Assembly: GCA_029861865.1 (NCBI GenBank)
Contig: JAOTYL010000015.1
Location: forward strand, 1-64,000
Direction: 5' to 3'
Source of the DNA: Myxococcales bacterium
GTDB lineage: Bacteria; Myxococcota_A; Polyangia; Polyangiales; Houyiibacteriaceae
Length of the DNA: 64,000 bases
In this document: positions 27,725-54,497 of the stretch, piece by piece
Layout: each line of letters starts with the position of its first letter
Numbering within the stretch: the first letter of the stretch is position 1
Made by a program: the position numbers and the translations under genes
The notes under the pieces: model-generated
Told to the model about the DNA's origin: nothing
What the model saw: the letters and a program-made list of their open reading frames with translations, nothing else
Databases searched by the model: none

Positions 27725-30094
27725 ATGACCGAACCGACTGTGCCGAGCAACGGCCGCCGTGTCCGCACTTATGTAGACTTTCTCTTCAAGTGGCGATGGC
27801 TGGTCCTCGTCGGCACGCTCGGCATCGCGGCAGTCGCGGCAAGCGGGGGCAGGTTCATCGAGTTCAAGAACGATTATCAATACTTCTTCCGCGAGGACAA
27901 TCCACAACTGCGAGCCTTCGAAGACTTGCAGGAGATCTATACCAAGAACGACAACACCCTGATCGTGGTCGCGCCGGAATCTGGCAAGGTTTTCGAGCCC
28001 GACACGCTCGCCGCCATCGGTGAACTCACCGACCGCGCATGGCAGCTACCGTTTGCAACACGGGTCGACTCGATCACCAACTTCCAATACTCGCACGCCG
28101 AGGAGGACGACCTGATCGTCGACGACTTGGTCGATCTCGAGCGAGACTACACTCGCGACGAGCTGGATGCGCTGAGAGCGATCGCGCTCACAGAGCCGCT
28201 TCTGAAACGCCGGCTGATCTCAGACGAAGCCCACGTCAGCGCCGTCTACGTCCGACACACCCTCCCCCGAAAGCGCTCCGACGAAGCGACCAAGGCTGCA
28301 CTGGCCGTCCGCGAGCTCGCAGCAGACATCGAGAACAAGTACCCGGGTCATGAGGTTCACCTGACAGGCAGCGTGATGCTTTCGAATTCCTTCTTCGAAG
28401 CTTCGGTTCAAGATCTTTCGAGACTCGTACCGCTCATGTACGGGGTGCTCTTGGTGACAGCGGTGCTGTTTCTGAGATCGTTTTGGGGGATGTTGATCAC
28501 GTTGGTGATCATCGTGCTTTCGGCGTCTACTGCGATGGGGATCGCCGGCTGGACCGGGATTCCGATCACCCCACCGAGCTCATCTGCGCCGACGGTCATC
28601 ATGACCCTCGCTGTCGCGGACAGCATTCACCTGCTCGTCACGCTTTTTCAATCCATGCGCAGAGGCATGTCCAAAAAGGAAGCGATGACCGAGAGTCTCC
28701 GCATCAATTTGGGGCCGGTATTTCTCACGAGCCTCACGACCGCGATCGGCCTCTTGGCGCTCAATCTGAGCGATGTTCGGCCGTTCAACGATCTCGGAAA
28801 CATCTCAACCATCGGTGTGACCGCGGCCTTTGTCTACACGGTCGTCGTGTTGCCTCCGTTGGTCGCGATCTTCCCCATTCGCGCCGGAAAGAAGTCGGCA
28901 AGCGAGCGCTCCAATGCAGTCGTGACCCTCGGCGAGTTCGTCATCTACAGACGAAAAGGCCTCTTGTGGTTCGGCGCCGCAGCGATCGTTTTTCTGAGCG
29001 CGATGGTCGCCCGCAACGAGCTCAACGACGAGTTCGTCAAGTACTTCGATGAAAGCTTTGCCTTTCGCACCGACACGGACTTTGCAAGCGAGAATCTGTC
29101 GGGCATCTACACGATGGAATTCTCTCTAGATTCCGGTGAAGAAGGTGGGATCTCGAACCCGAGCTTTCTCGAGGACGTGGACGCCTTCGCCGTATGGCTG
29201 AGAGAGCAGCCCGATGTGCACCATGTCTTCACGCTCACCGACACGTTCAAGCGTTTGAACAAGAACATGCACGCGGACGACCCCGAGTGGTACGCCCTCC
29301 CCAAGGAACGTGAGCTCGCCGCGCAGTACCTGTTGTTGTACGAGATGTCTCTCCCGTACGGGCTCGACCTCAACGACACGATCAACATCGAAAAGTCGTC
29401 AACTCGGTTGATCGTCACCTGCGACAACGTCACCGCCGTCCGCATGCGCGAGCTTCAGGCGCAGTCCGAGGCCTGGCTCCGCGCCAACACACCCGAGCAC
29501 ATGTGGACCGTCCCTGCCTCGACCAATCTCATGTTTTCTCACATCTCCGAGCGCAATATCAAGAGCTCGTTGCTCGGGGCATTCATTGCCCTTGCCCTGA
29601 TCGCGGTGATTCTCGGGATCGCTTTCCGCAGCGTGAAGTTTGGGGCGATCAGTCTCTTGCCAAACCTCGCGCCCGCCATGATGGCGTTTGGTATCTGGGG
29701 AATGACGGCCGGTAGAATCGACGTCGGGAACGCGATCGTGACCACCATGGCGCTTGGCATCATCGTCGATGACAGCGTCCACTTCTTGAGCAAGTACCTC
29801 CGCGCGCGGCGTGAGGGAGGCATGGCTACACAGGGAGCCGTTCGCTATGCATTCTCCACCGTTGGTTCCGCCCTGATCGTGACTTCGTTCATTTTGGTGG
29901 CTGGCTTCCTCGTGCTCACGCTTTCACCATTCGGTCTCAACGCCGGCATGGGGCTCTTGACGGCCATCGTGCTCTTGGTCGCGCTCGGCGCAGACCTCTT
30001 GTTCCTTCCGCCGTTGTTGATGCAAATCGACAAGGCTCCACGCTTACCGTCCGAGTCACAACTGCCCTCGCCTGCCGAGGCAGCCGCCCAATGA
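27725..30094 (+). CDS. MMPL/RND-family exporter
   Basis: 789 residues with the RND layout: an N-terminal membrane helix (WRWLVLVGTLGIAAVAAS), a periplasmic loop, five membrane helices, a second periplasmic loop and five more helices. The sterol-sensing/MMPL block (TALLFLRSF-like VLFLRSFWGMLITLVII, AVADSIHLLVTLF) and its second copy (MALGIIVDDSVHFLSKYLRARREG) are clear. Such short MMPL proteins move lipids or hydrophobic metabolites out of the inner membrane. Its 3' end meets the LolA-like gene, and an outer-membrane barrel follows, so the three probably form one envelope lipid-transport unit. Confidence 0.92.
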   Translation: MTEPTVPSNGRRVRTYVDFLFKWRWLVLVGTLGIAAVAASGGRFIEFKNDYQYFFREDNPQLRAFEDLQEIYTKNDNTLIVVAPESGKVFEPDTLAAIGELTDRAWQLPFATRVDSITNFQYSHAEEDDLIVDDLVDLERDYTRDELDALRAIALTEPLLKRRLISDEAHVSAVYVRHTLPRKRSDEATKAALAVRELAADIENKYPGHEVHLTGSVMLSNSFFEASVQDLSRLVPLMYGVLLVTAVLFLRSFWGMLITLVIIVLSASTAMGIAGWTGIPITPPSSSAPTVIMTLAVADSIHLLVTLFQSMRRGMSKKEAMTESLRINLGPVFLTSLTTAIGLLALNLSDVRPFNDLGNISTIGVTAAFVYTVVVLPPLVAIFPIRAGKKSASERSNAVVTLGEFVIYRRKGLLWFGAAAIVFLSAMVARNELNDEFVKYFDESFAFRTDTDFASENLSGIYTMEFSLDSGEEGGISNPSFLEDVDAFAVWLREQPDVHHVFTLTDTFKRLNKNMHADDPEWYALPKERELAAQYLLLYEMSLPYGLDLNDTINIEKSSTRLIVTCDNVTAVRMRELQAQSEAWLRANTPEHMWTVPASTNLMFSHISERNIKSSLLGAFIALALIAVILGIAFRSVKFGAISLLPNLAPAMMAFGIWGMTAGRIDVGNAIVTTMALGIIVDDSVHFLSKYLRARREGGMATQGAVRYAFSTVGSALIVTSFILVAGFLVLTLSPFGLNAGMGLLTAIVLLVALGADLLFLPPLLMQIDKAPRLPSESQLPSPAEAAAQ

Positions 30095-30111
30095 CGACAA
30101 GGAGACAACCG

Positions 30112-30894
30112 ATGAATCGTTTCGTTCCACTAGCGCTGGTCGCTGCGCTCGTCCCGGCCTTGGCCGTGGCCGGCCCCGCCGAAGACAAAGGGTTGGAGAT
30201 CGCCAAGGAGGCAGACCGGCGCGACACTGGCTTCGGCGACACCACAGCTGACATGATCATGATCCTGCGCAACAAGAGAGGTCAGGAAAGCAAGCGCGAG
30301 ATCGAGATCCGAACCCTCGAGGTCAAAGGGGACGGTGACAAGTCATTGACCGTGTTCCACAGCCCTCGCGACGTTCGTGGCACGGCGCTGCTGACCTACT
30401 CACACGGCGTAGCGCCCGATGATCAGTGGCTCTACCTTCCTGCTCTTCGGCGTGTCAAACGCATCGCCTCGAACAACAAGTCGGGCCCGTTCATGGGCTC
30501 GGAGTTCGCCTACGAAGACCTCTCCTCGCAAGAGGTCGAGAAGTACAAATACAAGTACATCAAGGATGACGAGATCGCGGACGTCGCGTGTTTCCTCATC
30601 GAGCGCTATCCGGTCGACAAGGACTCCGGCTACACCAAACAACAAGTGTGGCTCGACAAAGACGAATATCGCGCCCGAAAGATCGACTACTACGACCGCA
30701 AGGGACAGCTGCTCAAGACGTTCACACCGACCGAGTACAAACAGTTTCTCGGCAAATACTGGCGCGCGCACAAAATGATGATGGTGAATCATCAAAACGG
30801 AAAGAGCACCGAGCTCATTTGGAGTAACTTCAAGTTCAAGAACGGCCTCAAAGATAGCGACTTTACCCGCACGCGCTTGACGCAGGTGCTTTAG
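30112..30894 (+). CDS. Outer-membrane lipoprotein-sorting (LolA-like) protein
   Basis: 260 residues from ATG 30112, with AAGGAGA 8 bases upstream. The signal peptide MNRFVPLALVAALVPALAVA ends at an Ala-x-Ala type site. The mature part is the half-barrel LolA-like fold of PF17131 (ADMIMILRNKRGQESKREIEIRTLEVKG; WLYLPALRRVKRIASNNKSGPFMGSEFAYEDLSS), typical of periplasmic carriers encoded next to MMPL exporters. Lipid or lipoprotein binding is expected from the family. It sits between the exporter and the outer-membrane barrel gene. Confidence 0.92.
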   Translation: MNRFVPLALVAALVPALAVAGPAEDKGLEIAKEADRRDTGFGDTTADMIMILRNKRGQESKREIEIRTLEVKGDGDKSLTVFHSPRDVRGTALLTYSHGVAPDDQWLYLPALRRVKRIASNNKSGPFMGSEFAYEDLSSQEVEKYKYKYIKDDEIADVACFLIERYPVDKDSGYTKQQVWLDKDEYRARKIDYYDRKGQLLKTFTPTEYKQFLGKYWRAHKMMMVNHQNGKSTELIWSNFKFKNGLKDSDFTRTRLTQVL

Positions 30895-30919
30895 CTCGAG
30901 CGGGCGCGACGAAAAACGC

Positions 30920-32353
30920 ATGCCTGCTTCACTGGCCTCGTGGTTGCTGACGGCCCTCCTTTGCCTCGGGGGTGCAACGCGTGCGAGTGCTCAGGAAACG
31001 CCGGCGGAGCGCATGGAAGAAGCCGACGAGAAGGTGCGCGAGCTCCAAGAGCCGGCTCCCGAAGGCGTCGAGCTCGAGCTCACGAGCCCCGAAACGACCA
31101 AGGACGAAGCCGAATGGAAGGACGCGGAAGAACCGGCGGCGGAAGAAGCCCCAGCCGAAGAGGAGCCGGAGGAAGAACGCGAGACCTTTGGCGACCGCTT
31201 CAAGCGCGGAGACCTCTTCGGCTTCTTCGACGTCCAAGGGCGGTTCTTCCCACAGCCAGCGCTTCCCCCGGCGCCCGGAGCTCCCGTGCTGAACGACTAC
31301 TGGTTCAATGGCTCGCTCGCCTGGGAGCCGGGGTTTTTCATGAACGTAACCGACTACATGAACTTCGAGCTGATCTTGTTTGGCCGAGTCGACCAACACG
31401 ATCGGAACCGCACCCATGGCGACATCCGCGAGGCGTTCTTCGAGCTCTTCTTCAACGAGTGGACGTTCGGGTTCGGGGTGCACAAAGTTTTCTGGGGTGT
31501 TACCGAGTCGCGCCACCTGGTCGACATCATCAACCAGACCGATTTGGTCGAAGACTTCGACACCGACATCAAGCTCGGCCAGGCGATGATCACCACGTCA
31601 TATACGAGTGAGAAGGCCGGCACCTTCAGCCTCTTCGTGATGAGCTGGGAGCGCCCGTTGGTCTTCCCGGGGCCGTTCGGCCGCCCCACCCTTCCAATCC
31701 CAGTCGACAACGACATCCGCATCTACGAATCGCGCCTCAAACAAGGCCAGATCAGCACCGCGTTCCGATGGTCGTACGCTGTCGCCGGTCTCGACTTGGG
31801 CTTGAGTTATTTCTTCGGTACCGCGCGCGACCCCCAGCTCTTCCTGACTACGACCGGCGCGGGAGTACCGGTCTTCCAACCCGTTTACGCCCTGATCCAC
31901 CAGGGTGGCCTGGACGCGCAGTACACGATCGAAGGCTGGCTGCTCAAGGTGGAGTCGATCGTGCGAGGCGGCCAAGGCCCTACGTTCGGCGCGATCACCG
32001 GAGGTTTTGAATACACGTTCTTTCAGGCCAACGGGAGCGTCGTCGATGTCGGCGTGATCCTCGAGTACAACTACGACGGCCGCGACAACAACACCTTCAT
32101 CCTGTTCAACAACGACTTCTTCACAGGTATGCGTCTCACGCTCAACGACGTGGGAAGCACCGAATTCTTGATCGGCGCCTTCATCGACACCGAAGACGGC
32201 ACGGTTTTCATCGCTGCCGAAGCTGCACGTCGCTTCGGGGAAAACTGGAAAATCTTGCTCGAGGGCCGGGGTTATATCCCCCAAGGTGACAACGTCCTCG
32301 AATTCTTCCGCAACGACTCCCAAATCCAAGTCGATATCGAGTTCCGCTACTGA
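30920..32353 (+). CDS. Outer-membrane beta-barrel protein (DUF1302-like)
   Basis: 477 residues. The signal peptide (SWLLTALLCLGGATRASA) is followed by a Glu/Ala/Pro-rich stretch of about 65 residues, then repeated aromatic amphipathic strands ending FRY, as in outer-membrane barrels. The body (WFNGSLAWEPGFFMNVTDYMNFELILFGRVD; FGFGVHKVFWGVTESRHLVDIINQTD) resembles DUF1302-type proteins that accompany MMPL and LolA-like genes. It is the third gene of that set, 25 bases downstream, and plausibly forms the outer-membrane exit or acceptor for the exported lipid. Confidence 0.85.
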   Translation: MPASLASWLLTALLCLGGATRASAQETPAERMEEADEKVRELQEPAPEGVELELTSPETTKDEAEWKDAEEPAAEEAPAEEEPEEERETFGDRFKRGDLFGFFDVQGRFFPQPALPPAPGAPVLNDYWFNGSLAWEPGFFMNVTDYMNFELILFGRVDQHDRNRTHGDIREAFFELFFNEWTFGFGVHKVFWGVTESRHLVDIINQTDLVEDFDTDIKLGQAMITTSYTSEKAGTFSLFVMSWERPLVFPGPFGRPTLPIPVDNDIRIYESRLKQGQISTAFRWSYAVAGLDLGLSYFFGTARDPQLFLTTTGAGVPVFQPVYALIHQGGLDAQYTIEGWLLKVESIVRGGQGPTFGAITGGFEYTFFQANGSVVDVGVILEYNYDGRDNNTFILFNNDFFTGMRLTLNDVGSTEFLIGAFIDTEDGTVFIAAEAARRFGENWKILLEGRGYIPQGDNVLEFFRNDSQIQVDIEFRY

Positions 32354-33298: not shown

Positions 33299-34138
33299 TC
33301 ACGGCAACCGGTACGGCTCCAGCTCGTCGCGGAAGTGGCCGTACAGCTTGCCCCAAAACCACAGGCTGAGGCTTGGAGAAAAGCGCTCGAACCACCAGAG
33401 TGCTTTCCAAAACGAGGGCACGATGATGATCGGCTTGTTACGCTCGATCTCCCGCAGCGCTTTGCCCGCAAACACGTCTACGTTCATCGGCCGCAACTTC
33501 TCCCAAAGCTCCATCACCTTGGTCTCGGCGCCTTCCTTGAGGTTCAGCCGTCCGTACTTCCCCGTGGTGAGGATCGGCGTGCGAATCGCGCCTGGACAGA
33601 GCGCGGACACCTTCACACCGTGCTCTTTGGCTTCGATCCGAAGCGTCTTGCTGAGCCCGACGACTGCGTGTTTGGTCGCCGCGTAACTCGCGGCCTCCCC
33701 TGTCGGCAAAAGCCCGGCTACCGACGCCGTATTGATGATGTGCCCCGAGCCCTGCCGACACATGATTGGATACACCGACTGAATGCCATGCGCGACGCCG
33801 CGGAGATTGACGTCGAACACGTCGTACCAATCGGGAAGCGTATAGCCGAGAATGGCGCCCCCGACCCCGATGCCCGCGTTGTTGAACAGATAGTCGATGC
33901 GCCCGGCGCGCGCGACGGTGTCGTCGACGACGCGTTCAAACTGCGAGGCGTCGCGCACATCGAGCTCTACTGCGGTCGCCTGGCCGCCGCCCTGCCGAAT
34001 CGCCGTCGCGATCTCTTCGGCGAGACCGATCTGGCGGTCGGCTAGGACCACTTCGACGCCTCGGCTTCCGAGCTGCCTGGCGAACGCGGCGCCTATTCCG
34101 GAAGCGCCGCCGGTGATGAACGCAACTTTGTCGGCCAT
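33299..34138 (-). CDS. Short-chain dehydrogenase/reductase
   Basis: 279 residues from ATG 34138, with GGAGGGCGAG upstream; upstream codons in the frame are not supported. The NAD(P)-binding motif is TGGASGIG, the structural motif NNAG, the catalytic Ser in NTASVAG and YxxxK as YAATK. This is the classical SDR catalytic set. The C-terminal extension (SFWKALWWFERFSPSLSLWFWGKLYGHF) is hydrophobic and could associate with membranes, as in some lipid or steroid SDRs. It is divergent from the monooxygenase gene, with 177 bases between them. Confidence 0.92.
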   Translation of the reverse strand: MADKVAFITGGASGIGAAFARQLGSRGVEVVLADRQIGLAEEIATAIRQGGGQATAVELDVRDASQFERVVDDTVARAGRIDYLFNNAGIGVGGAILGYTLPDWYDVFDVNLRGVAHGIQSVYPIMCRQGSGHIINTASVAGLLPTGEAASYAATKHAVVGLSKTLRIEAKEHGVKVSALCPGAIRTPILTTGKYGRLNLKEGAETKVMELWEKLRPMNVDVFAGKALREIERNKPIIIVPSFWKALWWFERFSPSLSLWFWGKLYGHFRDELEPYRLP

Positions 34139-34315
34139 GACTCGCCCTCCACTCGTCCGATCGATCGTACCGACGGCAACCTTAGCAGACGCAAGAGCTG
34201 CGCGACGCACGAGATGCACCGTTTCCGGGACGACGTTCCGCGCATTCTTTGCGCAAGTCCCGAATTGCGGCGGGGCATCGGGCGCAAGCATGCTCTAGTG
34301 GTTATTAGGGTAGTT

Positions 34316-35896
34316 ATGGGTGCGCCCGCGAGACATAGCGAAGCAGATTTCGAGGTCGCCATCGTTGGGGCGGGTTTCTCTGGCTTGTGCATGGCGATCA
34401 AGCTGAAACAGGCTGGGATCGATTCATTCGTCGTGCTCGAGAAAGCCGAAGAGGTGGGCGGAACCTGGAGAGTGAATACCTATCCTGGGTGTGCATGCGA
34501 CGTGCAATCGCACCTTTACTCGTATTCGTTCGATGGAAACCCCAACTGGTCACGCAAGTTCGCACCATGGAAGGAGATCTACGACTACATCCTCCGGTGC
34601 ACGGACGAGCACGAGCTCCGAAGGCACATTCGATTCGGCCACGAAGTCGATCAAGCGGTTTTCGATGCAGGCCCGGGGCTCTGGCGCATCCGGGCAAAGA
34701 ACGGCAGCACGGTCACCGCTCATGCCTTCGTCCTGGGCACTGGGCCGCTACACGTCCCGTTGAGCCCAAACGTGCCTGGGCTCGAAACTTTCCAAGGGAA
34801 GGTCTTTCATTCGTCGCAATGGGACCACGATTTCGAATTCGAAGGCAAGACCGTCGCCTCGATTGGGACGGGTGGAAGCGCAATTCAATATGTGCCCGAG
34901 ATCGCCCCTCGAGTGAAGCATCTCCATGTCTTTCAGCGGACCGCACCCTGGATTCTACCGAAGCCCGATCGCGAGTACACCAAGGTCGAGAAGCTCCTGT
35001 TCCGCCTCTCACCCAAGCTCCGAAAGCTGCATCGTGGATGGCTCTACGTTCGAAACGAGCTTCGTGTCTTGCCGATCATGAACCCCAGGCTCGCGAGGCC
35101 TCTCGAGAAACTTGCCGCGCTCTACATCAAGCACTGCGTCGACGACCCGGCGATCGTCGAACGGCTCACACCCGATTACACGATCGGCTGCAAGCGGGTG
35201 CTCCTCTCCAACAACTACTACCAGACGTTCAATCGCCCGAACGTCGAGCTGGTCACCGATGCCCTCACCGAGATCAAAGAGAACAGTGTGGTGACGAGCG
35301 ACGGCGTGGAGCGGCCGGTCGATGCGATCATCCTCGGCACCGGCTTCGAGGCCGACCCCAGAAACTACTTGGACAAGCTGACGATCAAGGGCCTTGGAGG
35401 GCGTGACCTGCTCACACGCTGGGAACATGGCGCGGAGGCCTACCTCGGGATCACGGTGGCGGGTTTTCCGAACATGTTCGAGCTCGTCGGACCGAATACG
35501 GGTCTTGGGCACAACTCCTTGCTGTTCATGATCGAGTCGCAGGTGCACTACATCGTTCAATGCTTGAAGCTCTTGCGAGAGAAGAAGGCCAAGTACATGA
35601 ACGTCCGCACCCCCGCGCTTCGGCGCTACAACGAAGAGCTCGAGCAAAGGCTCGAGAACACGGTTTGGACCTCGGGTTGCAAGAGCTGGTACACGCAGGA
35701 AGACGGCAAAAACATCGCGATTTGGCCCGGCTTTTCGTTTCGCTATCGCGCCCGCACCCGACGCGTCGAAGCAGACCACTACGTATGGACGCCGCACCTC
35801 GAAAGGACTACCGTCCAAAGCCATGGGCGAGACGCACATCCGCACCGAGATCAACATCGACGCCCCGCCTTCGGTGGTGTGGGCGGTGCTGACTGA
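34316..35896 (+). CDS. Flavin-containing Baeyer-Villiger-type monooxygenase
   Basis: 526 residues from ATG 34316. The FAD Rossmann motif is GAGFSG (18-23) and the NADPH motif is GTGGSA (about 184-189). The BVMO fingerprint FxGxxxHxxxWD is complete as FQGKVFHSSQWD (159-170). That supports insertion of oxygen next to a ketone, or a related oxidation. The last 24 codons overlap the start of the SRPBCC gene (74 bases, different frame) and read as an unstructured tail, so the original stop may have been lost. The neighbouring SDR could supply a ketone (inference). Confidence 0.93.
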   Translation: MGAPARHSEADFEVAIVGAGFSGLCMAIKLKQAGIDSFVVLEKAEEVGGTWRVNTYPGCACDVQSHLYSYSFDGNPNWSRKFAPWKEIYDYILRCTDEHELRRHIRFGHEVDQAVFDAGPGLWRIRAKNGSTVTAHAFVLGTGPLHVPLSPNVPGLETFQGKVFHSSQWDHDFEFEGKTVASIGTGGSAIQYVPEIAPRVKHLHVFQRTAPWILPKPDREYTKVEKLLFRLSPKLRKLHRGWLYVRNELRVLPIMNPRLARPLEKLAALYIKHCVDDPAIVERLTPDYTIGCKRVLLSNNYYQTFNRPNVELVTDALTEIKENSVVTSDGVERPVDAIILGTGFEADPRNYLDKLTIKGLGGRDLLTRWEHGAEAYLGITVAGFPNMFELVGPNTGLGHNSLLFMIESQVHYIVQCLKLLREKKAKYMNVRTPALRRYNEELEQRLENTVWTSGCKSWYTQEDGKNIAIWPGFSFRYRARTRRVEADHYVWTPHLERTTVQSHGRDAHPHRDQHRRPAFGGVGGAD

Positions 35897-36299
35897 CTTT
35901 TCCGGTTTCCACGAATGGAACCCGATGGTCGTTGCTGCCGAGGGGCCGGCGACCGAGGGAAGCACAGCAAAGCTTCATTACCGATCGAACATCGGTCTCC
36001 ATCTTCGTTTTCGTGTCCGCATCATGCGTTCCGACCCCGAGCGGGAGCTTCGGTGGGTCGGCTCGCGGCTCGGCGTCAGCGGCGAGCACTACTTTCTATT
36101 GATGGCGGAGGGATCGGGGACGCATTTCGTACACGGCGAGGTGTTCCGCGGGCTATTGGCGGGGCCCATGAGCTTCCTGTTCCGCGATCAAGTCCCCGTG
36201 TTCGACACCTTCAATCGTGCTCTCAAAGACGTTGCAGAGCATCGCTTCAAGACGGCCGGAGTCGCGCCTACGGATGGTACAGGGCAAGCCCGACCGTGA
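35823..36299 (+). CDS. SRPBCC-family (START-like) ligand-binding protein
   Basis: 158 residues with the helix-grip fold: TEINIDAPPSVVWAVLTDFSGFHEWNPMV at the start, then beta strands (LRFRVRIMRSDPERELRWVGSRL; HYFLLMAEGSGTHFVHGEVFRGLL) and a long C-terminal helix. Family members bind hydrophobic ligands or act as polyketide cyclases. It overlaps the monooxygenase 3' end by 74 bases and the convergent KASIII-like gene by 32 bases. Substrate unknown. Confidence 0.88.
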   Translation: MGETHIRTEINIDAPPSVVWAVLTDFSGFHEWNPMVVAAEGPATEGSTAKLHYRSNIGLHLRFRVRIMRSDPERELRWVGSRLGVSGEHYFLLMAEGSGTHFVHGEVFRGLLAGPMSFLFRDQVPVFDTFNRALKDVAEHRFKTAGVAPTDGTGQARP

Positions 36300-37260
36300 T
36301 GCCCGCTCCCACCATGACGAAGAGCACGTTGCGAGCGTCGCCAAACTGACCGGTTCGCATGGTCCCTTCGAGCGCAGCGATCGGGCCGGCCGTGTGCACC
36401 CGGGCGAAACTCTCGTCCACCTGCGCGACGCGATCGGCTGGCACCCCGAGCGCCTGACTGAAGGTGTCGGCAAAGCCTGCGGGCGTCGGGCTCGGAACGA
36501 CGAGGTCGATGTCCTTCACATTGAGCCCGGCGCTCTCGAGGAACGGGCCGGTGGAAGTCAGCGCACACTCTGCACACCGCGCCGCATAGCCCTCCCCTTG
36601 GTCGACCTGCAAGACATTTCTGCCGGGCTCCAACCCGGGAACCACGTCGGCAACCACGCGCGGAATCGGCCTTTCTTCCCAACTCATCTCGGCTTTGAGC
36701 AGATGCTTGAACTCGGAGAAGGTCGCAAAGGCGAACCGCGAGAAGCCCTGGTTTTCGTCGTCGCTCCGCGAGAGCAGCACCGCGCCGCCAAACGCGGCAA
36801 ACGGAAACCTAGAGGTCCCGCTTCGCGATATACGACCGGAGCTGCCGACTAGACCAAAGGGGAAGTCCCAGTTGCTGCCGCGTTCCGGGTCCGCATCGGA
36901 GGTCACGACGATGCCCACGTCGATCGCACCCGAGGTCAGGAACCCATCGAGGATGTGGATGCCTGTCAGAACGCCCACCGCACCATTGACGACGTCGAAC
37001 GAGAAGGTCCCGTGACCACCCTCTAGAGGGGGGTCTGGGTTAGCGCCGATGTCCTCTTGGATGATCGAGGCCACCGCCGGCTCACCGATGTTGTTATCCC
37101 GATAGATGCCGGCGTTGATCAAAAAGTCGATGTCGGCTGCAGTGCGACCCGCACGCTCGAGGCACGCTTGGGCGGCGGCGTCGGCAAGCTTGATCGCACC
37201 GGTCCCCCCTAGGCGTCTACGGGGGCGAGCCGTGCTGGCGGCCTCAATCTTCGTTCCCAT
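36268..37260 (-). CDS. KASIII-like protein lacking the catalytic triad
   Basis: 330 residues with the thiolase fold of 3-oxoacyl-ACP synthase III. The three catalytic positions seen intact in the neighbouring paralogue are all changed. The Cys of FDISNACAG corresponds to Ala94 in FDVVNGAVG, the His of IIPHQTS to Ser257 in VVPSPTP, and the Asn of FGNTSS to Arg (about 287) in FARVHT. It is therefore unlikely to be a condensing enzyme itself. It overlaps the active paralogue by 17 bases in the same direction, which suggests a heteromeric pair in the manner of PqsB with PqsC. Confidence 0.85.
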   Translation of the reverse strand: MGTKIEAASTARPRRRLGGTGAIKLADAAAQACLERAGRTAADIDFLINAGIYRDNNIGEPAVASIIQEDIGANPDPPLEGGHGTFSFDVVNGAVGVLTGIHILDGFLTSGAIDVGIVVTSDADPERGSNWDFPFGLVGSSGRISRSGTSRFPFAAFGGAVLLSRSDDENQGFSRFAFATFSEFKHLLKAEMSWEERPIPRVVADVVPGLEPGRNVLQVDQGEGYAARCAECALTSTGPFLESAGLNVKDIDLVVPSPTPAGFADTFSQALGVPADRVAQVDESFARVHTAGPIAALEGTMRTGQFGDARNVLFVMVGAGITVGLALYHP

Positions 37261-38374
37261 AGCGATCCAGAATCTCTTCGACGGGGAAGATCATGACACC
37301 TACCTCGAGCCCCGATGCAAACGAGATCAGCATGATGGTATCGCCCTTCTTGAAGCGCTTTTCACCGAGGTACTTCCGCAGCGCTACGAAATGAGTGGTC
37401 GACGACGTGTTGCCAAACTCATTGACCGTGACCACCACGCGCTTTGGCTGCACACCGAGACGCTCCCCGATCTCTCTTGCACCACGCTCGATGGCCCGTG
37501 CCGAGGTCTGGTGAGGGATGATGTAATCGATGTCGCCAAAGCTGTAGCCGGCGGCGTCCAGCGCCTCTTTCAGCAGTTGGGGGGACTCGGAGATGGCGAC
37601 CTGGTGAATTTGCCGTGCCTTGGTGAACATCGAAGCGCCGGGGCCCACCTTGCTGGGTGCCCCGAGGCATAGGCGACTATGTTCGGAAAGCGTGGTGAAG
37701 CCTGCTACGGCGATGTGATCGGTCTCGCTCTTTGTGCGCTCGACGATCACGGCCGTCCCTGCGTCGCCGAGGGTAAGGGAGGCGAGTTGATCGCTGAGTA
37801 CCCAGCGGACCTGCTTCGCGGCGTTCTGGCCTAGGTTCGAGATGCATTCGCCACTCACGGCCATGCCCCGCTGGATGACACCCCGTCGGATGAAATCGTG
37901 CAGAATGAAGACGCCGGTCATCATCCCTGCGCACGCATTCGAAATGTCGAAGCTGATCGCTCGGTGCGCGCCGATGGCATCCTTGATGCTCAAGCTCAGC
38001 GGCGCCTCCCACTGATGCCGAAGCCCCCCCTTGTACCGACTGATGCTGCAGTTGATCAGCATCTCCATGTCCTCGGGGCCGTGATGCGAGTGGTCGAGGC
38101 AATCCCTGGCCGCCCCAACGGCCAGAGTATACGAGTCTTCACCTTCCGAGCAGACGTGTCGCTGGTGGATCCCGGTCAGCCGTTCGAGCTCGATGTGGGT
38201 ATTGTGCGCGGTGCTCTCCATCAGCTCCCGCGTCGTCAGGATGCGCTCGGGGATCTTCCAACCGATGCTTTCGATTCGCGTCGGGATCGCCGGACTCCCA
38301 TCCGCGAGAGTCCCAACGCCTGCCTCGAGGATCATCCCGTGATCCATTGGAACTGCGTGCCGCTCCCTTGCCAT
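37244..38374 (-). CDS. 3-oxoacyl-ACP synthase III family protein (active member of a pair)
   Basis: 376 residues with an intact KASIII triad: Cys148 in SFDISNACAGMMTG, His288 in DYIIPHQTSARA and Asn322 in NEFGNTSST. The enzyme should condense an acyl thioester with a malonyl or similar partner, or transfer an acyl group. The spacing and sequence differ from housekeeping FabH, so a secondary-metabolite or unusual-lipid role is likely (inference). It is the first gene of an overlapping pair with a triad-less paralogue. A 171-base gap with nothing recognisable separates it from the divergent MBL-like gene. Confidence 0.92.
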   Translation of the reverse strand: MARERHAVPMDHGMILEAGVGTLADGSPAIPTRIESIGWKIPERILTTRELMESTAHNTHIELERLTGIHQRHVCSEGEDSYTLAVGAARDCLDHSHHGPEDMEMLINCSISRYKGGLRHQWEAPLSLSIKDAIGAHRAISFDISNACAGMMTGVFILHDFIRRGVIQRGMAVSGECISNLGQNAAKQVRWVLSDQLASLTLGDAGTAVIVERTKSETDHIAVAGFTTLSEHSRLCLGAPSKVGPGASMFTKARQIHQVAISESPQLLKEALDAAGYSFGDIDYIIPHQTSARAIERGAREIGERLGVQPKRVVVTVNEFGNTSSTTHFVALRKYLGEKRFKKGDTIMLISFASGLEVGVMIFPVEEILDRYGNED

Positions 38375-38545: not shown

Positions 38546-39139
38546 ATGCGCCAACTGCTGCCTGGTGTTCTCACTTGGTCGTGGTTTTCCGAGCCGCATG
38601 GCTATGATTTCAATGGAACGCTGTTCGTGCACGAGGCAGGAAACCTCTGTGTCGATCCGGTCCCACCGAGCGATGAGGTGCTCGATCGACTCGAGGAGCA
38701 GGGCGTCGCGCAGATTCTGATCACCAACCGCAACCACACCCGCGCGTCCAACCAGGTCGCCGAGCAAACCGGCGCACAAGTGGCCATTCACCCGGCCGAT
38801 GCAGCCCACGCGCGGGAACAGGGCACGCACATCGACGCAGCACTCGAGGTGGGACAACGCGTCGGCCCTTTCACCGTCATCGGCGTGCCCGGAAAGTCTC
38901 CAGGCGAAATCGCGTTGCATGACCCAGCGCGGGGGATCCTGGTCGTCGGCGATGTGGTGATCGGGAATCCGCCGGGAGCGCTCTCTTTCTTGCCCGATCG
39001 CGTAGTCGATGACCCGGCTCAGTTGCGGGCGAGCGTGCGCGAGTTGGCCGAGCTCGAGTTTGATGCGCTGATCGTCGGAGATGGGGTTCCGATTTTGGAA
39101 GGGGCGAAGGCGAAGCTGCGGGAGTTGGTCGGCTCATGA
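38546..39139 (+). CDS. MBL-fold-like hydrolase, short and metal-site poor
   Basis: 197 residues. The fold pattern of metallo-beta-lactamase proteins is visible (HGYDFNGTLFVHEAGNLCVDPV; ILITNRNHTRASNQVAEQTGAQVAIHPADA; GPFTVIGVPGKSPGEIALHDPARGILVVGDVVIG). The HxHxDH metal motif is reduced to NRNHTRAS, and the usual His before the second metal ligand is PGKSPGE. It may bind fewer metals or none. It overlaps the convergent hydrolase gene by 6 bases. Function unknown. Confidence 0.8.
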   Translation: MRQLLPGVLTWSWFSEPHGYDFNGTLFVHEAGNLCVDPVPPSDEVLDRLEEQGVAQILITNRNHTRASNQVAEQTGAQVAIHPADAAHAREQGTHIDAALEVGQRVGPFTVIGVPGKSPGEIALHDPARGILVVGDVVIGNPPGALSFLPDRVVDDPAQLRASVRELAELEFDALIVGDGVPILEGAKAKLRELVGS

Positions 39140-39961
39140 AACGAGAAACTCGTGGATCAGTTGGCCCACGCGTTGAGGCTCGTCTTCCTGCAAGAAGTGG
39201 CCGCAATTGGGTAGCGACGTGATCTGCGCCTGCGGGAGGTCGCCCTTCACGCGTCGCATGGTCTTGGCGATGTCGGGCAAGACGCGGTCGTTTTCGCCAT
39301 AGATGATGCGGACCGGTGCCTTGAGGCTTGGAAGCTTCTGCGCGATCTCGGCAAGGCCCTTGATGCCGAGGCCCGAACCCGCTTTGATCAATGCTTGGCG
39401 CGCCGCGGAATCGACGAAAGGCACCGTGTAAGGAGTGAGCGCTTCTCGGTTGAGGCGATCCTTGTGAACGACGCCAAACTTCATGGAGGCGACGAGCCCC
39501 TTCTGGCTCACCAGGTAGTCGCGCACCCCTGGCAATTTAAGGGCGATCAAGAAGAGCTTCACCGCCCACGAAGTTTCGGGGTAGACCAACGTGTTCAGAA
39601 TGACGAGCTGCGAGAGCCGCTCGGGATGGTGAACCGCCCAAAACAAGCCGACCGGCCCTCCAAGGTCGTGTACCGCAAGAGCGGTCTTGGTGATTCCAAG
39701 TGCGTCGAGAAAACCATCGAGCACTCTTTCGAAGAAGAAGAAGTTGTACTTGATGTCCAACGGCTTGTCGGAGAGGCCATAGCCCGGAAGATCGATCGCG
39801 ATCGCGCGGTGACTCTTGGCAATCGCTGGCATCACGTTGCGCCATAGATGCGACGACGTCGGAAACCCGTGAATCAACAAAACGGGAACACCTTCTCCGG
39901 CCGACAGGTAGTGAATGTTTAGCCCATCCACCTCGACGTACCGACTCGACATTTCGGTCAT
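39134..39961 (-). CDS. Alpha/beta hydrolase with Asp nucleophile (haloalkane dehalogenase/epoxide hydrolase type)
   Basis: 275 residues. HGFPTSSHLWRNVMP (oxyanion HG) and DLPGYGLSDKP are typical of the haloalkane dehalogenase/epoxide hydrolase branch. The nucleophile elbow is VHDLGGPVG, so the nucleophile is Asp99 rather than Ser. Haloalkane dehalogenases usually carry Trp right after this Asp; here it is Leu, which argues against simple dehalogenation. The acid is probably in YGENDRVLPD and the His in NCGHFLQEDE. The start overlaps the upstream GNAT gene as TGATG. Confidence 0.9.
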   Translation of the reverse strand: MTEMSSRYVEVDGLNIHYLSAGEGVPVLLIHGFPTSSHLWRNVMPAIAKSHRAIAIDLPGYGLSDKPLDIKYNFFFFERVLDGFLDALGITKTALAVHDLGGPVGLFWAVHHPERLSQLVILNTLVYPETSWAVKLFLIALKLPGVRDYLVSQKGLVASMKFGVVHKDRLNREALTPYTVPFVDSAARQALIKAGSGLGIKGLAEIAQKLPSLKAPVRIIYGENDRVLPDIAKTMRRVKGDLPQAQITSLPNCGHFLQEDEPQRVGQLIHEFLVS

Positions 39962-48436: not shown

Positions 48437-48598
48437 TGGCAGGCGACGCTGGCAAGACCGTTTGCGACCACTACACCCGGTTGAAAGACTCCCCTATCAA
48501 CTCGCCGAGACCCCCCTAGGATCGCGCCTTTCTGGATGTTATGATTGACGGCGCGGTGCCCCCCAAGCACCGTCCTCGCCTCGACGTACTCCGCTAGC

Positions 48599-51500
48599 AT
48601 GACAAGCAAGACCTTCCATTCGCTCCGGCATGGCGCGCTGGGGTTCCTTTTCTGTTGTTCCGCAGCGTTGTTGTTCAACACAAGCAGTGGATCTGCACAA
48701 GGGCCGGAAATGGTTGGTGCGTGGAGTCCGGTGATCGCGTGGCCGCACATTCCCGTCTCCGCGGCGAATCTTCCGGATGGGCGCATTGTGACTTGGTCTG
48801 CAAGCAGGGAGACCGCGTTTCCAAACAACGGAGAGTTTTTCACGCACTCGGCCGTCTACGATCCTGTTTCGGCCAGCTTCACGACGACGAACAACCCTCA
48901 CAACGACATCTTCTGCGCTGGCATTTCGTTGATGGAGGATGGTGCGGTAATGGTGACGGGCGGCCGGCAAGTCAACCGACGGACGGCGGCGTTTGATCCG
49001 CAGAGTCTCGTGTGGTCCAGACGGTCGGACATGGGTTTCCCGCGTTGGTATGGCACGCAACTAACGCTGCCCAACGACGAAGTGATGGCGGTGTTTGCAC
49101 AAGGCGCCGGCCCAGTCGTGGAACGCTATTCGGCACCCATCGATCGGTGGACGGCTTTGCCTGGGATGGAGATGACGACGGCGGCCGCTGAGCAAGCTGC
49201 TACGAACTCCGGAAGCGCGAATAACGGCGGCACGAACTCGCAGTGGTGGTCGTTCCTGCACGTCGCACCGGATGGGCGTGTATTCCACTCCGGGCCATGG
49301 CCCAGCATGCATTGGTACGATGCGGTCGGCTCGGGCGATATCGAAGCCGCCGGCACACGACTAGGGGGAGACCAAACGCGCGGGTTCGGGACAGCGACGA
49401 TGTATGACGTCGGCAAGGTATTGGTGGTTGGTGGGCAGGATCGAAAAGCGCCAGAAGCCTCGTCGCGCGAAGTGATCAAAATCGACGTCAATGGCGCTGC
49501 CCCGCTAACGCAACAAGCCAGTGATATGGCGTACAAGCGTACCAATCACAATGCCGTCCTATTGCCGACGGGCCAGCTCATCGTCGTTGGTGGCAACGAG
49601 AACGCAAAGATCTTCAATGACCAAACCAGCGTTCTGGAGCCGGAGATCTGGGATCCACAAACCGATCAGTGGACCCTGATGGCGCCACACACGGTGCCGC
49701 GCAACTACCACTCTGTCGCGCTGCTACTCAAGGATGGACGCGTTCTGTCTGGGGGCGGTGGTCTCTGCGGGAATTGTCCGGAAAACCATCAAGACGCGGA
49801 GATCTTCTCACCGCCGTATCTGTTCTCCGCGGGCGGCGTGCCAGCAGTGCGTCCCGTGATCACGCAGAGTGCACCGAGCGCGCAAGCTGGCGATGAGCAT
49901 AGCGTCACTGCGAGCCCTGGAGTGCAGGCGTTCAATGTGATCCGGCTCGCCGGCGTGACACACTCCATCAACACCGATGCGCGATTCGTGCCGGTCGACT
50001 TCGTTGAAGACGCACCAGGCGAGTACACTCTCTTTTTCAATGACAACCCGAACGTGCTCGTTCAGGGGTACTACTGGCTGTTCGCGGTCGATGCGCAGGG
50101 TGTGCCGTCGATCGGTCACACACTTCAAGTGGTGCGTGATGTCGCACAACCAGACGTACCCATCAGCTACGAGGTATTTCACGGCATTTGGTCGTCGCTG
50201 CCTGACATGGACGCGTTGACGCCAGAAGCCACTGGCAACACAGACGATTTCACGTTGCAGGTTCGGCTCCGCGATACCGACTACGCGCTGCGGTTCCGTG
50301 CGCAGTTCTTTGTCGAGACAACGGGTGTCTACAATTTCGCAACGCTATCGGACGATGGCTCGAAGCTTCTGGTCGACAGCGCTTTGGTGGTCGACAACGA
50401 CGGGGTGCACGGGCTCTTGCGCGCAGACGGTTCGGTTTCGTTGACAGCCGGATACCACGATGTCGAGGTGCAGATGTTCAATGGCGGGGGACCCGCGCAA
50501 CTCGGCATTCGCTGGAGCGGCCCCACCTTCTCGGAGACGTCCTTCGATGGACGAGATGTGGGCGAAGTCAGCGTGCCGTTGGAGTTCACGTCAATCGTCC
50601 AGACCCAGCCACAACCGGTCGGCGTTAACGTGATGTGGTCAGCCCCAGCACAGGGCGCTGGCACGATCGACTACGAGTGGGCGTTCGGCGACGGCAACTC
50701 GACCACGACGACTAATTCAACCGTGGCGCACACCTATACGGAGCCTGGTCGGTACACGGTCATCGTTCTCGCCTCGGATCAAGCCGGCCGGCAGATCAGT
50801 CAGCAATTCGTACAGGTCATTCATGCGGCCGCGTTCTTGGCAGAGCCGCCGCGACATTCGTCGACCATCGCGCTCGATGCTGACGCAGGCGGGGATCGTG
50901 TTTGGAACGTAAACCCCGACCAAAACACCCTCACGGTGATCGACGCAGATGGGGCCCTTCTTGGTGAGCTTCCAACGGATGACAGGCCGTGGGCGATAGC
51001 CTTGCATCCAGCGGCACCTGAAGCCTGGGTGGTGAACAAGGGGAGCGCAACCATTTCCATTCACGACACAGGCACGTTCGAGCGCATCGATACGATTTCG
51101 CTCCCGCGTGGCTCGCAGCCGCACGGGATCGTGTTCTCGGAAAGCCGCGTGTTTGTCGCACTTGAGGCAACCGGCCAGGTCGCCCGTATCACGAACAGCG
51201 GAGTGGATCTCGTCAACGTGGGTCGGCGTCCACGGCACTTATCGATTGACCCACAGTCTGCACTTCTCTTGGTGTCGCATTTCGTGACGCCACCGCTTCC
51301 GGGCGAAGCGGGGACCGCGCCAGTGGTTGACGATGGCGTCCAGGAGTATGGCGGTTGGGTCACACCAGTCGACGCACAAACGTTGCAAGTGGACACGCCG
51401 ATCATTTTGGGCCACAGCAATGTCGCGCCGACCGAGCACAGTGGTCCTGGGATTCCAAACTATCTGGGCCCGGCGGTAATCGCCCCCACAGGTTCGATGG

Positions 51501-52837
51501 CGTATGTCCCTTCGAAGCAAGACAACGTTCTCGGAGGCGCGATGCGAAGTGGCGAGGCGCTTCGATTCGACCAGGCCGTACGCGCCGTGAGCTCGCACAT
51601 CGATCTCGCGACGTTGAGCGAGGTTCGCGGTGCCAGGGTCGAACATGACGATGCATCTATCGCGACCGACGCGGTGTTTGGGTCGCTTGGCGTTCATTTG
51701 TTTACGGCGCTCGAGGGCAATCGCCAGGTCGTCGTGAACGATGCGGTGTCTGGCATGGAGCTCGGCCGGATGCAGGTTGGGCGGGCACCCCAAGGGCTCG
51801 TTCGCTCTTCGGACAACCGTTTGTACATTCACAACTTCATGGATCGAACGATCACGATCATGGACGTCGACGCGATCATTCAGGGTGGTGCAGTGACCAG
51901 CGCTTCCGAGCTCGCGGTGGTTGGCACGAGCCAGTCAGAAGCCCTCGACCCCACCGTGTTCGTGGGCAAGCAGCTCTTCTACGACGCAGCAGACGATCGC
52001 CTCGCCGCGTTCGATTACATGAGCTGCGCGTCGTGCCACAAGGAAGGCGGACAAGACGGCCGAGTGTGGGATTTCGCTGCGGTCGGAGAGGGGTTGCGCA
52101 ACACGATCACGCTGGTCGGTCGCGGAAGACCGGCTCACGGCATGGTTCACTGGAGTGGCAACTTCGACGAGATCCAGGATTTTGAAGCGCAGATCCGCGC
52201 GTTTGCCGGTGGCACCGGCCTCATGGACGACGCGGATTTCTTCTCTGGAACACGCCAGGATCCACTCGGCGACCCGAAGGCAGGCATTTCCCCGGACCTC
52301 GATGCATTGGCAGCATACGTGCACTCGCTTACGGCCGTCCCGGAGAGCCCATTTCGCACGGTAGATGGCCCAGACCCAACTGTCGACAACGGAAGGATCG
52401 AGTTCTTAATTGCGGGCTGTAACGTCTGTCACGGTGGCTCGGCGATGACGGACAGCTGGACTGGCGCCCGCCATGACGTCGGAACGCTGGCTGCGACGTC
52501 CGGCCAACGCCTCGGCGAACCACTCGATGGGCTCGACACCCCATCGTTGCAGGGTGTGTGGGCAACTCCTCCATACCTGCATGATGGTTCTGCCGCGACG
52601 TTGGAGGAAGCGATCGAAAGTCACGACTCGACTTCGGAGCTTCCAACGGAAACCATCGATGAGATAGCGCGATACGTTCGCACCATCGAGGATGAACCGA
52701 TCCACTCGAGCGGTTGCTCTGTCAACGCGCCAAACACCGAGAATGCGCCGTTCAGCGTGTTCGCGGTGTTGATGCTGGCCGGGGTGCGTTCGCGACACCG
52801 CTCACGCCGTGGTCGAGATCTCGCTGCGCAATCGTGA
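48599..52837 (+). CDS. Copper-radical oxidase / PA14 / PKD / beta-propeller / diheme cytochrome c fusion
   Basis: 1412 residues from ATG 48599. The signal peptide is followed by a Kelch-type galactose/glyoxal-oxidase domain (about 40-515). Its copper-radical residues are in place: Cys106 (HNDIFCAGIS) to crosslink Tyr151 (PRWYGTQ), axial Tyr370-His371 (PRNYHSV) and His455 (VTHSIN). Next come PA14 (about 522-645), PKD (about 660-742; YEWAFGDGN), a YVTN-like propeller (about 750-1100) and a cytochrome c region with CASCH (1143-1147) and CNVCH (1274-1278). The tail SSGCSVNAPNTENAPF, a hydrophobic stretch and an Arg cluster resembles MYXO-CTERM. It should oxidise alcohols or aldehydes outside the cell; the coupled cytochrome suggests electron transfer in place of, or beside, H2O2 formation (inference). 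Confidence 0.88.
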   Translation: MTSKTFHSLRHGALGFLFCCSAALLFNTSSGSAQGPEMVGAWSPVIAWPHIPVSAANLPDGRIVTWSASRETAFPNNGEFFTHSAVYDPVSASFTTTNNPHNDIFCAGISLMEDGAVMVTGGRQVNRRTAAFDPQSLVWSRRSDMGFPRWYGTQLTLPNDEVMAVFAQGAGPVVERYSAPIDRWTALPGMEMTTAAAEQAATNSGSANNGGTNSQWWSFLHVAPDGRVFHSGPWPSMHWYDAVGSGDIEAAGTRLGGDQTRGFGTATMYDVGKVLVVGGQDRKAPEASSREVIKIDVNGAAPLTQQASDMAYKRTNHNAVLLPTGQLIVVGGNENAKIFNDQTSVLEPEIWDPQTDQWTLMAPHTVPRNYHSVALLLKDGRVLSGGGGLCGNCPENHQDAEIFSPPYLFSAGGVPAVRPVITQSAPSAQAGDEHSVTASPGVQAFNVIRLAGVTHSINTDARFVPVDFVEDAPGEYTLFFNDNPNVLVQGYYWLFAVDAQGVPSIGHTLQVVRDVAQPDVPISYEVFHGIWSSLPDMDALTPEATGNTDDFTLQVRLRDTDYALRFRAQFFVETTGVYNFATLSDDGSKLLVDSALVVDNDGVHGLLRADGSVSLTAGYHDVEVQMFNGGGPAQLGIRWSGPTFSETSFDGRDVGEVSVPLEFTSIVQTQPQPVGVNVMWSAPAQGAGTIDYEWAFGDGNSTTTTNSTVAHTYTEPGRYTVIVLASDQAGRQISQQFVQVIHAAAFLAEPPRHSSTIALDADAGGDRVWNVNPDQNTLTVIDADGALLGELPTDDRPWAIALHPAAPEAWVVNKGSATISIHDTGTFERIDTISLPRGSQPHGIVFSESRVFVALEATGQVARITNSGVDLVNVGRRPRHLSIDPQSALLLVSHFVTPPLPGEAGTAPVVDDGVQEYGGWVTPVDAQTLQVDTPIILGHSNVAPTEHSGPGIPNYLGPAVIAPTGSMAYVPSKQDNVLGGAMRSGEALRFDQAVRAVSSHIDLATLSEVRGARVEHDDASIATDAVFGSLGVHLFTALEGNRQVVVNDAVSGMELGRMQVGRAPQGLVRSSDNRLYIHNFMDRTITIMDVDAIIQGGAVTSASELAVVGTSQSEALDPTVFVGKQLFYDAADDRLAAFDYMSCASCHKEGGQDGRVWDFAAVGEGLRNTITLVGRGRPAHGMVHWSGNFDEIQDFEAQIRAFAGGTGLMDDADFFSGTRQDPLGDPKAGISPDLDALAAYVHSLTAVPESPFRTVDGPDPTVDNGRIEFLIAGCNVCHGGSAMTDSWTGARHDVGTLAATSGQRLGEPLDGLDTPSLQGVWATPPYLHDGSAATLEEAIESHDSTSELPTETIDEIARYVRTIEDEPIHSSGCSVNAPNTENAPFSVFAVLMLAGVRSRHRSRRGRDLAAQS

Positions 52838-52865
52838 TCCATCGCAACTACGGTACGCGTTGCTG

Positions 52866-54497
52866 ATGCGTCGACGAGCGACATGGTGCTGGGTCCCCGT
52901 CATGATGGCCATCGTGACAAGCGGTTGCAACTCCAAACCCATCAGGGGCGCGGACGCCGGTGTGGACGCAGCGCTGCAGGTCGAGACGCCTGCTTGGGGG
53001 TTTGTGGCGAACGCTCAGAGTGAAACCGGCGGAGTGCATGTGCTCGTTCACACCGATACGCTCCCAATCCCCGTCAACGTGATGCATCGGTGGCGCATTC
53101 AGGTGCTGCGCGGACCCGGCAAACTGACACCGTTCATGCCGGAAGCACTCGTGGTGAACGGTGGCATGCCCTCCCATGGACACGGTCTGCCAACCCAGCC
53201 TGCGGTCTCGCGGTATCTCGGCAAAGGCATGTTCGTCGTGAATGGCATGCGTTTCAACATGGGTGGCGAATGGGAGATGATCGTTCGCGTGCTCGAACAG
53301 GGTCGGTGGCATCGCACAGCCTTCACGATTGCACTGCAATCGGCAGGAGATCACGGGCATCACGGTTCGGTGTGGAATGAAACCGAGATGGGTTTGCTGC
53401 GAAGTCTGTCGTTGTCTGCCGCGGGCCCACGACCCCGCGATCGCACCAATCGCGTGCAAGATGACGCGCGTGCCGTTGAGCTTGGTCGCGCACTCTTCTT
53501 CGACAAGAAGCTAAGTGCCAACGGTGAGGTGTCATGTGCGACGTGTCACCGGGAGTCTTTGGCGTTCACGGACGGACGCAGAACGGGTAAGGGGCTCGCG
53601 GTTCTCGACCGCAATACGCCGAGTGTGGTCGGCGCGGCCTGGCAACGATGGTTCTATTGGGATGGTCGGCGTGACAGCTTGTGGGCGCAGGCACTCGTGC
53701 CGATCGAGGCCGCTCGTGAAATGGGCTCCAGCCGTCTGGCAGTCGTGCGTGCCATCCGGCAGGACGCGAAGTACGAGCGCGCCTACGAATCCCTGTTTGG
53801 CCCGCTGCCATCACTGGAGGGGTTGTCGGTGCCGCACGCCGGTCCCATCGGTCCGGAGGCACACCGTGTCGCATGGCGGCAAGTTCCCGTTCGGACGAGA
53901 CGGTCGATCAACGTGGCGTTTGCAAACGTCGGAAAAGCGATTGCAGCGTTCGAGTCGACGCTCGAGTTCGAGCCGACGCGTTTCGATCGCTACGTCGATG
54001 CACCCGCAGAAGGGGGGCTTCTGAACGACTCCGAGATCGCCGGACTTCGGCTATTCATCGATCCGAAAAACCAATGCCTAAAGTGCCACAACGGCCCGAT
54101 GTTCACCAACGGTGGTTTTCATAATATCGGAACGGGTTCGCCGGATCCGGCAAGCCTGGACGTGGGCCGCATCGCAGGTCTGCAGTCTGCGATCCTGGAT
54201 GAGTTCAATTGCCGCGGCCGCTATTCCGACGATCGGGAACGATGCAGCGAGCTCGAACACCTCGCGCCCGACGCGCACCTGGCAGGCGCGTTCAAGGTGC
54301 CGAGCATCCGGGGCGCAGCGAAGACGCCCCCGTACATGCACGACGGGCGCTTTTCGACCTTGCGCGAAGTGCTGGAGTTCTACCGAACGCCTCCAGCGCG
54401 GTCGAACGCCATGCCGCATGAGCTCGTGCCCTTGCCGCACCTGACGGACAGCGATCTAGACAGCCTCGAGGCGCTCCTGCGCATGCTTGGCGAGTAG
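52866..54497 (+). CDS. Lipoprotein with FixH/YtkA-like and MauG/cytochrome c peroxidase domains
   Basis: 543 residues from ATG 52866 with lipobox TSGC (Cys21); an in-frame GTG at 52809 would overlap the oxidase gene. The N-terminal domain (about 45-160) is FixH/YtkA-like, with PSHGHG at 102-107 that could bind metal. The C-terminal half is a diheme peroxidase of the CcpA/MauG/MbnH class: CATCH (224-228) and CLKCH (404-408), with FYWDGRRDSLWAQAL between the hemes. MauG-like enzymes can oxidise amino-acid side chains of partner proteins. It starts 28 bases after the oxidase stop, so a role in maturing or re-oxidising that oxidase is plausible but unproven. Confidence 0.9.
   Translation: MRRRATWCWVPVMMAIVTSGCNSKPIRGADAGVDAALQVETPAWGFVANAQSETGGVHVLVHTDTLPIPVNVMHRWRIQVLRGPGKLTPFMPEALVVNGGMPSHGHGLPTQPAVSRYLGKGMFVVNGMRFNMGGEWEMIVRVLEQGRWHRTAFTIALQSAGDHGHHGSVWNETEMGLLRSLSLSAAGPRPRDRTNRVQDDARAVELGRALFFDKKLSANGEVSCATCHRESLAFTDGRRTGKGLAVLDRNTPSVVGAAWQRWFYWDGRRDSLWAQALVPIEAAREMGSSRLAVVRAIRQDAKYERAYESLFGPLPSLEGLSVPHAGPIGPEAHRVAWRQVPVRTRRSINVAFANVGKAIAAFESTLEFEPTRFDRYVDAPAEGGLLNDSEIAGLRLFIDPKNQCLKCHNGPMFTNGGFHNIGTGSPDPASLDVGRIAGLQSAILDEFNCRGRYSDDRERCSELEHLAPDAHLAGAFKVPSIRGAAKTPPYMHDGRFSTLREVLEFYRTPPARSNAMPHELVPLPHLTDSDLDSLEALLRMLGE

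Follow-up and report, generated by a model that had tools for sequence, protein, structure and literature searches.

Lipstatin synthase of Streptomyces toxytricini (LstAB) consists of LstA, which carries the triad Cys128/His271/Asn305, and a triad-less LstB; the two are soluble only together, the E60A variant of LstB is inactive, and counterparts of LstB have been reported to be widespread and always to adjoin LstA (PMC12141560, a 2025 review). In OleA, Glu117, which is followed by Pro, is the base donated by one subunit into the active site of the other, and the keto acids formed by OleA-type enzymes lose CO2 spontaneously and become ketones (PMC7064751). In Pseudomonas aeruginosa, the dyad Cys/His of PqsC is not accompanied by Asn, and the partner PqsB was reported to be without catalytic residues (PMC4807248).

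The window analyzed here is a stretch of 64,000 nt at the start of a contig of a Myxococcales bacterium (GCA_029861865.1, JAOTYL010000015.1). Two of its genes, P0001 and P0002, lie in different frames of the minus strand and overlap by 17 bases (Table 1). Both proteins passed the Pfam cut-off for ACP_syn_III_C, and P0001 alone passed that for ACP_syn_III; the AlphaFold2 models of the two proteins, for which the alignments were built without plasmid sequences, have the KASIII fold (pLDDT 90.2 and 82.9, respectively). The overlap of two KASIII-fold genes, as described in an earlier note made from the sequence, was thus borne out by the ORF coordinates and Pfam. When the triad columns were read from an alignment of ~70 related pairs with FabH and OleA sequences, the Cys148/His288/Asn322 that the note had given for the first protein were recovered, and the Ala, Ser and Arg given for the second were identified as Ala94, Ser257 and Arg287. 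An intact Cys/His/Asn set elsewhere in P0002, a possibility raised in the same note, was not found in this alignment. No promoter was found when the region was scanned, and terminators and repeats were near chance, except for a weak internal similarity between the P0001 and P0002 genes.

Table 1. Positions of the gene pair, its key codons and its neighbours in the window
Feature	Position	Strand	Length	Remarks
P0001, active subunit, LstA/OleA-like KASIII	37244..38374	(-)	376 aa	
P0001, Cys148 codon	37931-37933	(-)		triad
P0001, His288 codon	37511-37513	(-)		triad
P0001, Asn322 codon	37409-37411	(-)		triad
P0002, triad-less partner, LstB-like	36268..37260	(-)	330 aa	Ala94/Ser257/Arg287 at the triad columns
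P0002, Glu60 codon	37081-37083	(-)		followed by Pro61
P0001/P0002 overlap	37244..37260	(-)	17 bases	ATGGGAACGAAGATTGA; contains the P0002 start and the P0001 stop
SRPBCC protein, polyketide cyclase/lipid-transport fold	35823..36299	(+)	158 aa	convergent; overlaps the 3' end of P0002
Type-I Baeyer-Villiger monooxygenase (BVMO)	34316..35896	(+)		ORF opens at 34214; fingerprint FQGKVFHSSQWD present
Classical SDR	33299..34291	(-)		real start probably near 34138

To determine the distribution of the pair, one genome per species was searched. Of the 71 loci found, 69 were true pairs with a P0002 homologue directly after the P0001 homologue; of the other two, one was cut off by the end of its contig (L091) and one proved to be a plain FabH (L105). 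Additional pairs came from plasmids of Rhodococcus and Streptomyces and from another five genomes of the window's phylum. The homologues were adjacent in ~78 loci, and the partner was present wherever the contig was long enough. The hosts belong to the Myxococcota, Actinomycetota (Streptomyces, Nocardia, Rhodococcus and Pseudonocardia), Gammaproteobacteria, Aminicenantes and Bacteroidota, and the distribution is patchy, since a P0002-type partner was present in only 7 of the 379 genomes of the phylum. A gammaproteobacterial MAG (L041, 9923-11040) has a P0001 homologue split into three ORFs beside an intact partner, owing to sequencing error or decay.

All three triad residues were kept in P0001 and in the 78 relatives of it, apart from one gap at His; Asn was present in 78/78. 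Among 79 partners, Cys and His were missing from all and Asn was present in two. Purifying selection acts on both genes (dN/dS 0.05-0.12), and divergence within one family is matched by divergence within the other (r 0.937, a value reached in 0 of 2000 shuffles and to which shared descent contributes). The adjacency in relatives, the losses in 79/79 partners and the purifying selection argue that the missing triad of P0002 is not a matter of chance or decay.

Only five columns were invariant in the 79 partners, and two of them are Glu60 and Pro61. Glu60 of P0002 aligned with the Glu-Pro motif of the same genome's own OleA as well as with Glu60 of LstB. The equivalent column of the active subunits (n = 78) held Glu in 66, Ala in 10 and Gln in 2, and in all 12 pairs in which the active subunit has no Glu of its own the partner retained it, as expected if the Glu of the partner alone serves the working site. 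Residues 54-59 of the P0002 model, the loop right before Glu60, were uncertain, which is compatible with a loop that may become ordered in the complex. Given that Glu60 of LstB is essential for catalysis, P0002 is probably not dead, and its Glu60 is probably catalytic here as well. The heteromeric condensing enzyme with a triad-less subunit put forward in the earlier note is retained, but the description of that subunit as dead does not agree with the invariant Glu60-Pro61 and the need for Glu60 in LstB.

Based on the conserved Asn, the invariant Glu60, its match to OleA Glu117 and LstB Glu60, and the pair of S. toxytricini itself (L087), in which Cys128/His271/Asn305 and a partner Glu60 matched the published numbering of LstA and LstB, P0001 and P0002 were assigned as an LstAB-type (split-OleA) acyl-CoA condensing enzyme, presumably a heterodimer, with a probability of about 0.8. 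The LstAB type is a known and widespread kind. As in LstAB, an active and a triad-less KASIII gene stand in tandem, with the triad in the first and the essential Glu60 in the second, and the homology extends over the full length of both proteins. However, the identity was ~34% between P0001 and LstA and ~27-29% between P0002 and LstB, so that the substrates of P0001/P0002 may differ from those of LstAB; moreover, the window pair has no adjoining LstC, LstD or NRPS gene, but a BVMO and an SRPBCC gene instead, together with the 17-base overlap. OleA of the X. campestris type shares the fold, the triad and the Glu-Pro base motif acting across the dimer, but it is a homodimer with both functions in one chain, whereas P0001 and P0002 split them over two genes. 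Because of this split, and because P0001 scored 68-70 bits against OleA while the genome's own OleA scored 378 bits against 3fk5, P0001 was ruled out as a homodimeric OleA orthologue.

In the phylogenetic tree, P0001 was placed apart from both OleA, which is on a long branch, and FabH. It grouped with all pair-forming A proteins with moderate support (85/83), in a clade sister to the LstA clade. The phylogeny against OleA and PqsB/PqsC suggested earlier as a check was thus run for OleA, and P0001 fell outside it; PqsB and PqsC were compared by profile scores in its place.

The two sister clades differ in their gene context. Near the pairs of the LstA clade (58 loci), an OleC-like and an OleD-like gene were both found in 37, a match to the NRPS query in 38 (including cross-hits to AMP ligases) and a formyltransferase in 19. 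The clade of the window comprises its genus, L038, L039 and the Rhodococcus loci L126-L128, with L040 as sister (97/93), and it has none of these genes near the pair, except in the sister L040 (OleB-A-B-OleC-OleD). Exactly the same 17-base overlap was found in 13 loci of three phyla, namely four of the genus, L038, L039, L041, L126-L128, L149, L150 and L151 (L149-L151 are outside the tree; the contigs of L037, L149 and L150 are short). No OleC/OleD gene stands beside the pair in 12 of the 13, the exception being L151 (OleB, OleC and OleD). This subset with a 17-base overlap, spread over three phyla and mostly without neighbouring OleC/OleD, is new. Clusters of oleBCD in which the split pair replaces oleA were observed at L040 9093-14518 and L151 3283-9038; the split pair can thus occupy the place of OleA.

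Beside the window pair no lipstatin-type OleC/LstC or OleD/LstD was found, and the best matches in the genome were on contigs C6 and C15. Contig C6 carries a complete canonical oleABCD cluster, including its own OleA (G000:C6 96775-101175; L106 5752-10416). An LstAB-type condensation could therefore be followed by transfer of the beta-keto acid to the OleD and OleC (and OleB) encoded in the same genome, giving a beta-lactone or an olefin, since this cluster could take the keto acid and since the pairs of L040 and L151 sit with oleBCD. Such a route is nevertheless unlikely: the cluster on C6 includes an OleA of its own, and in the same genus G014 (one contig) and G008 kept the pair, SRPBCC and BVMO with no OleC-grade match anywhere in the genome. 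Nor was such a match present in G329, G401 (L038), G402 (L039) or G403 (L041); the best E-values in these six genomes, all hosts of loci among the 12 without neighbouring OleC/OleD, were 1e-20 to 1e-27, compared with 1e-106 or better for true OleC, several of the genomes scored as OleC-less being incomplete MAGs.

The best single-sequence matches of P0001 in the PDB were FabH (98 bits, versus 68-70 for OleA), as for a FabH-like homodimeric starter enzyme beside which P0002 would be a regulator or a remnant, but this reading is highly improbable, given that a separate FabH is encoded on contig C8 of the genome, that P0002 is under purifying selection, keeps an invariant Glu60 and is never apart from P0001, and that LstA requires LstB for solubility (PMC12141560). 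The AlphaFold2 model of P0001 was nearest to OleA (Z 40.2, versus 38.8 for FabH), a weak margin of 1.4 Z, and the model of P0002 tied between FabH, OleA and PqsBC chains.

The PqsC/PqsB layout chosen as comparator in the earlier note is likewise heteromeric KASIII with one triad-less subunit, but it has other substrates and a weaker profile score; PqsBC is not the closest system, because PqsC has no Asn and PqsB no catalytic residue, unlike P0001 with Asn322 and P0002 with Glu60, and its place as the closest characterized system is taken by LstAB. PqsB was absent among the best 60 of 77 PDB matches of the P0002-family profile, which was given no weight as evidence. A PqsBC-like decarboxylative condensation, joining acyl-CoA to a malonyl or beta-keto substrate and leading to a quinolone-like small molecule, is hardly credible, for although the pairing of one active with one triad-less subunit and the PqsBC chains among the structural matches of P0002 (Z 29.6) would fit it, PqsBC membership was ruled out by Asn322 (78/78 relatives) and Glu60-Pro61 (79/79 partners), and the P0001-family profile scored 132 bits with OleA versus 85 with PqsC.

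The genes next to the pair were then compared between loci. In four genomes of the genus, the pair is followed by the convergent SRPBCC and BVMO genes. SRPBCC homologues adjoin the pair in six loci, namely those four, L149 (57%) and L150 (37%, also convergent), whereas in L038, L039, L041 and the Rhodococcus plasmids no SRPBCC gene was seen next to the pair. The start of the BVMO near 34316 is suggested by its relatives and the FAD motif. Both fingerprints, FxGxxxHxxxW(P/D) and [AG]GxWxxxx[FY]P[GM]xxxD, were present in the BVMO of the four genomes, and the nearest PDB matches were steroid and phenylacetone monooxygenases; in fingerprints and PDB matches it thus resembles the type-I BVMOs (steroid, phenylacetone and cyclohexanone monooxygenases). 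No steroid, phenylacetone or cyclohexanone monooxygenase is known to act next to an acyl-CoA condensing enzyme. A 60% homologue occurs without the pair in G022, and the BVMO need not act on the product of the pair. In three congeners without the pair (G002:C502, G005:C166 and G006:C400), the contig stops inside the BVMO, on the SRPBCC/pair side, as would be expected if strains vary at this site or if its assembly is faulty. The SDR was found in this position only in the window and its 95% relative L035; it was ruled out as a core partner and is optional. All three neighbours named in the earlier note are present, with the BVMO recurring in four genomes and the SRPBCC in six loci, but the SDR is confined to the window and L035.

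Upstream of the pair (38546-39961), a metallo-beta-lactamase-fold gene and a haloalkane-dehalogenase-like alpha/beta hydrolase were observed; L035 lacks the hydrolase and has a shortened metallo-hydrolase. The hydrolase (39137-39961) was considered as an OleB, with 28% to the OleB of L040, but was rejected, as L035 has no such gene next to its pair. A run of genes at a distance of ~5 kb (27725-32353) encodes an MMPL-family exporter, a LolA-like outer-membrane lipoprotein-sorting protein and a putative outer-membrane barrel, possibly a lipid export route; MMPL homologues (34-35%) immediately precede the LstAB-type pairs of L042 and L043, and LolA-like and MMPL genes beside the pair of L151. Farther away (48545-54494) are a large Kelch/galactose-oxidase-like, PA14 and PKD protein with a RoxA/MauG-like haem region and, after it, a gene for a di-haem cytochrome c peroxidase (MauG).

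Under the LstAB-type assignment, the overlapping genes, with probably coupled translation, would yield P0001 and P0002 in a 1:1 ratio, and the two would form one heterodimeric condensing enzyme. A fatty-acyl group would be loaded from acyl-CoA onto Cys148 of P0001. Glu60 of P0002 would cross the dimer interface into this site and, as a base, would activate a second acyl-CoA at its alpha-carbon, while His288 and Asn322 of P0001 would hold the thioester oxygens. A non-decarboxylative Claisen condensation would then join the two chains head to head into an alpha-alkyl beta-keto acid, with one working site per dimer because the active site of P0002 itself is lost. In the clade of the window, this acid would not be handed to a neighbouring beta-lactone synthetase OleC, but would most likely be decarboxylated to a long-chain internal ketone. 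Since the keto acids of OleA decarboxylate spontaneously, a ketone would be the default without OleD/OleC, and the chance that it is the product of the pair is put at about even. In the genus of the window, binding of the lipid may fall to the SRPBCC protein, and oxygen insertion by the BVMO may yield an ester, a step to which the gene context points and which is proposed only tentatively. Of the undescribed small-molecule or lipid pathway hinted at earlier, a lipid is probable and the gene context is new, but the kind of enzyme is known from LstAB.

The relatives of the pair in Pseudonocardia and Rhodococcus are found mostly alongside wax-ester synthases. One WS/DGAT gene was found in L039, one ~5 kb away in L126, and one on each side of the pair in L127, together with an alcohol dehydrogenase; no WS/DGAT was present among the genes listed for L128. 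Near the pair on the Rhodococcus linear plasmids (L126, L127 and L128), universal stress proteins (all three), CBS and flavodoxin-domain proteins were observed, and these regions look like a dormancy or stress island. A literature search for OleA together with BVMO or wax ester found nothing relevant. A speculative reading of these contexts is that the split-OleA branch left the olefin/beta-lactone path for ketones, which would be turned into long-chain esters by BVMO and SRPBCC in the genus and would be reduced and passed to WS/DGAT in actinobacteria.

The split-OleA pair would represent a complementary division of one active site over two genes. Selection never releases the Glu of the partner, while the same residue is dispensable in the active subunit, and the notion of a dead subunit has to be amended accordingly. 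The branch with the 17-base overlap would be one without a beta-lactone synthetase in three phyla, with a ketone, an ester or another neutral lipid as its product, and its hosts include soil Rhodococcus plasmids with stress and wax-ester genes. If the proposed fate of the product is true, the genus of the window would have a wax-ester route that needs neither a fatty alcohol nor a wax synthase, and in the actinobacterial relatives the ketone would be reduced to a secondary alcohol, which WS/DGAT would esterify.
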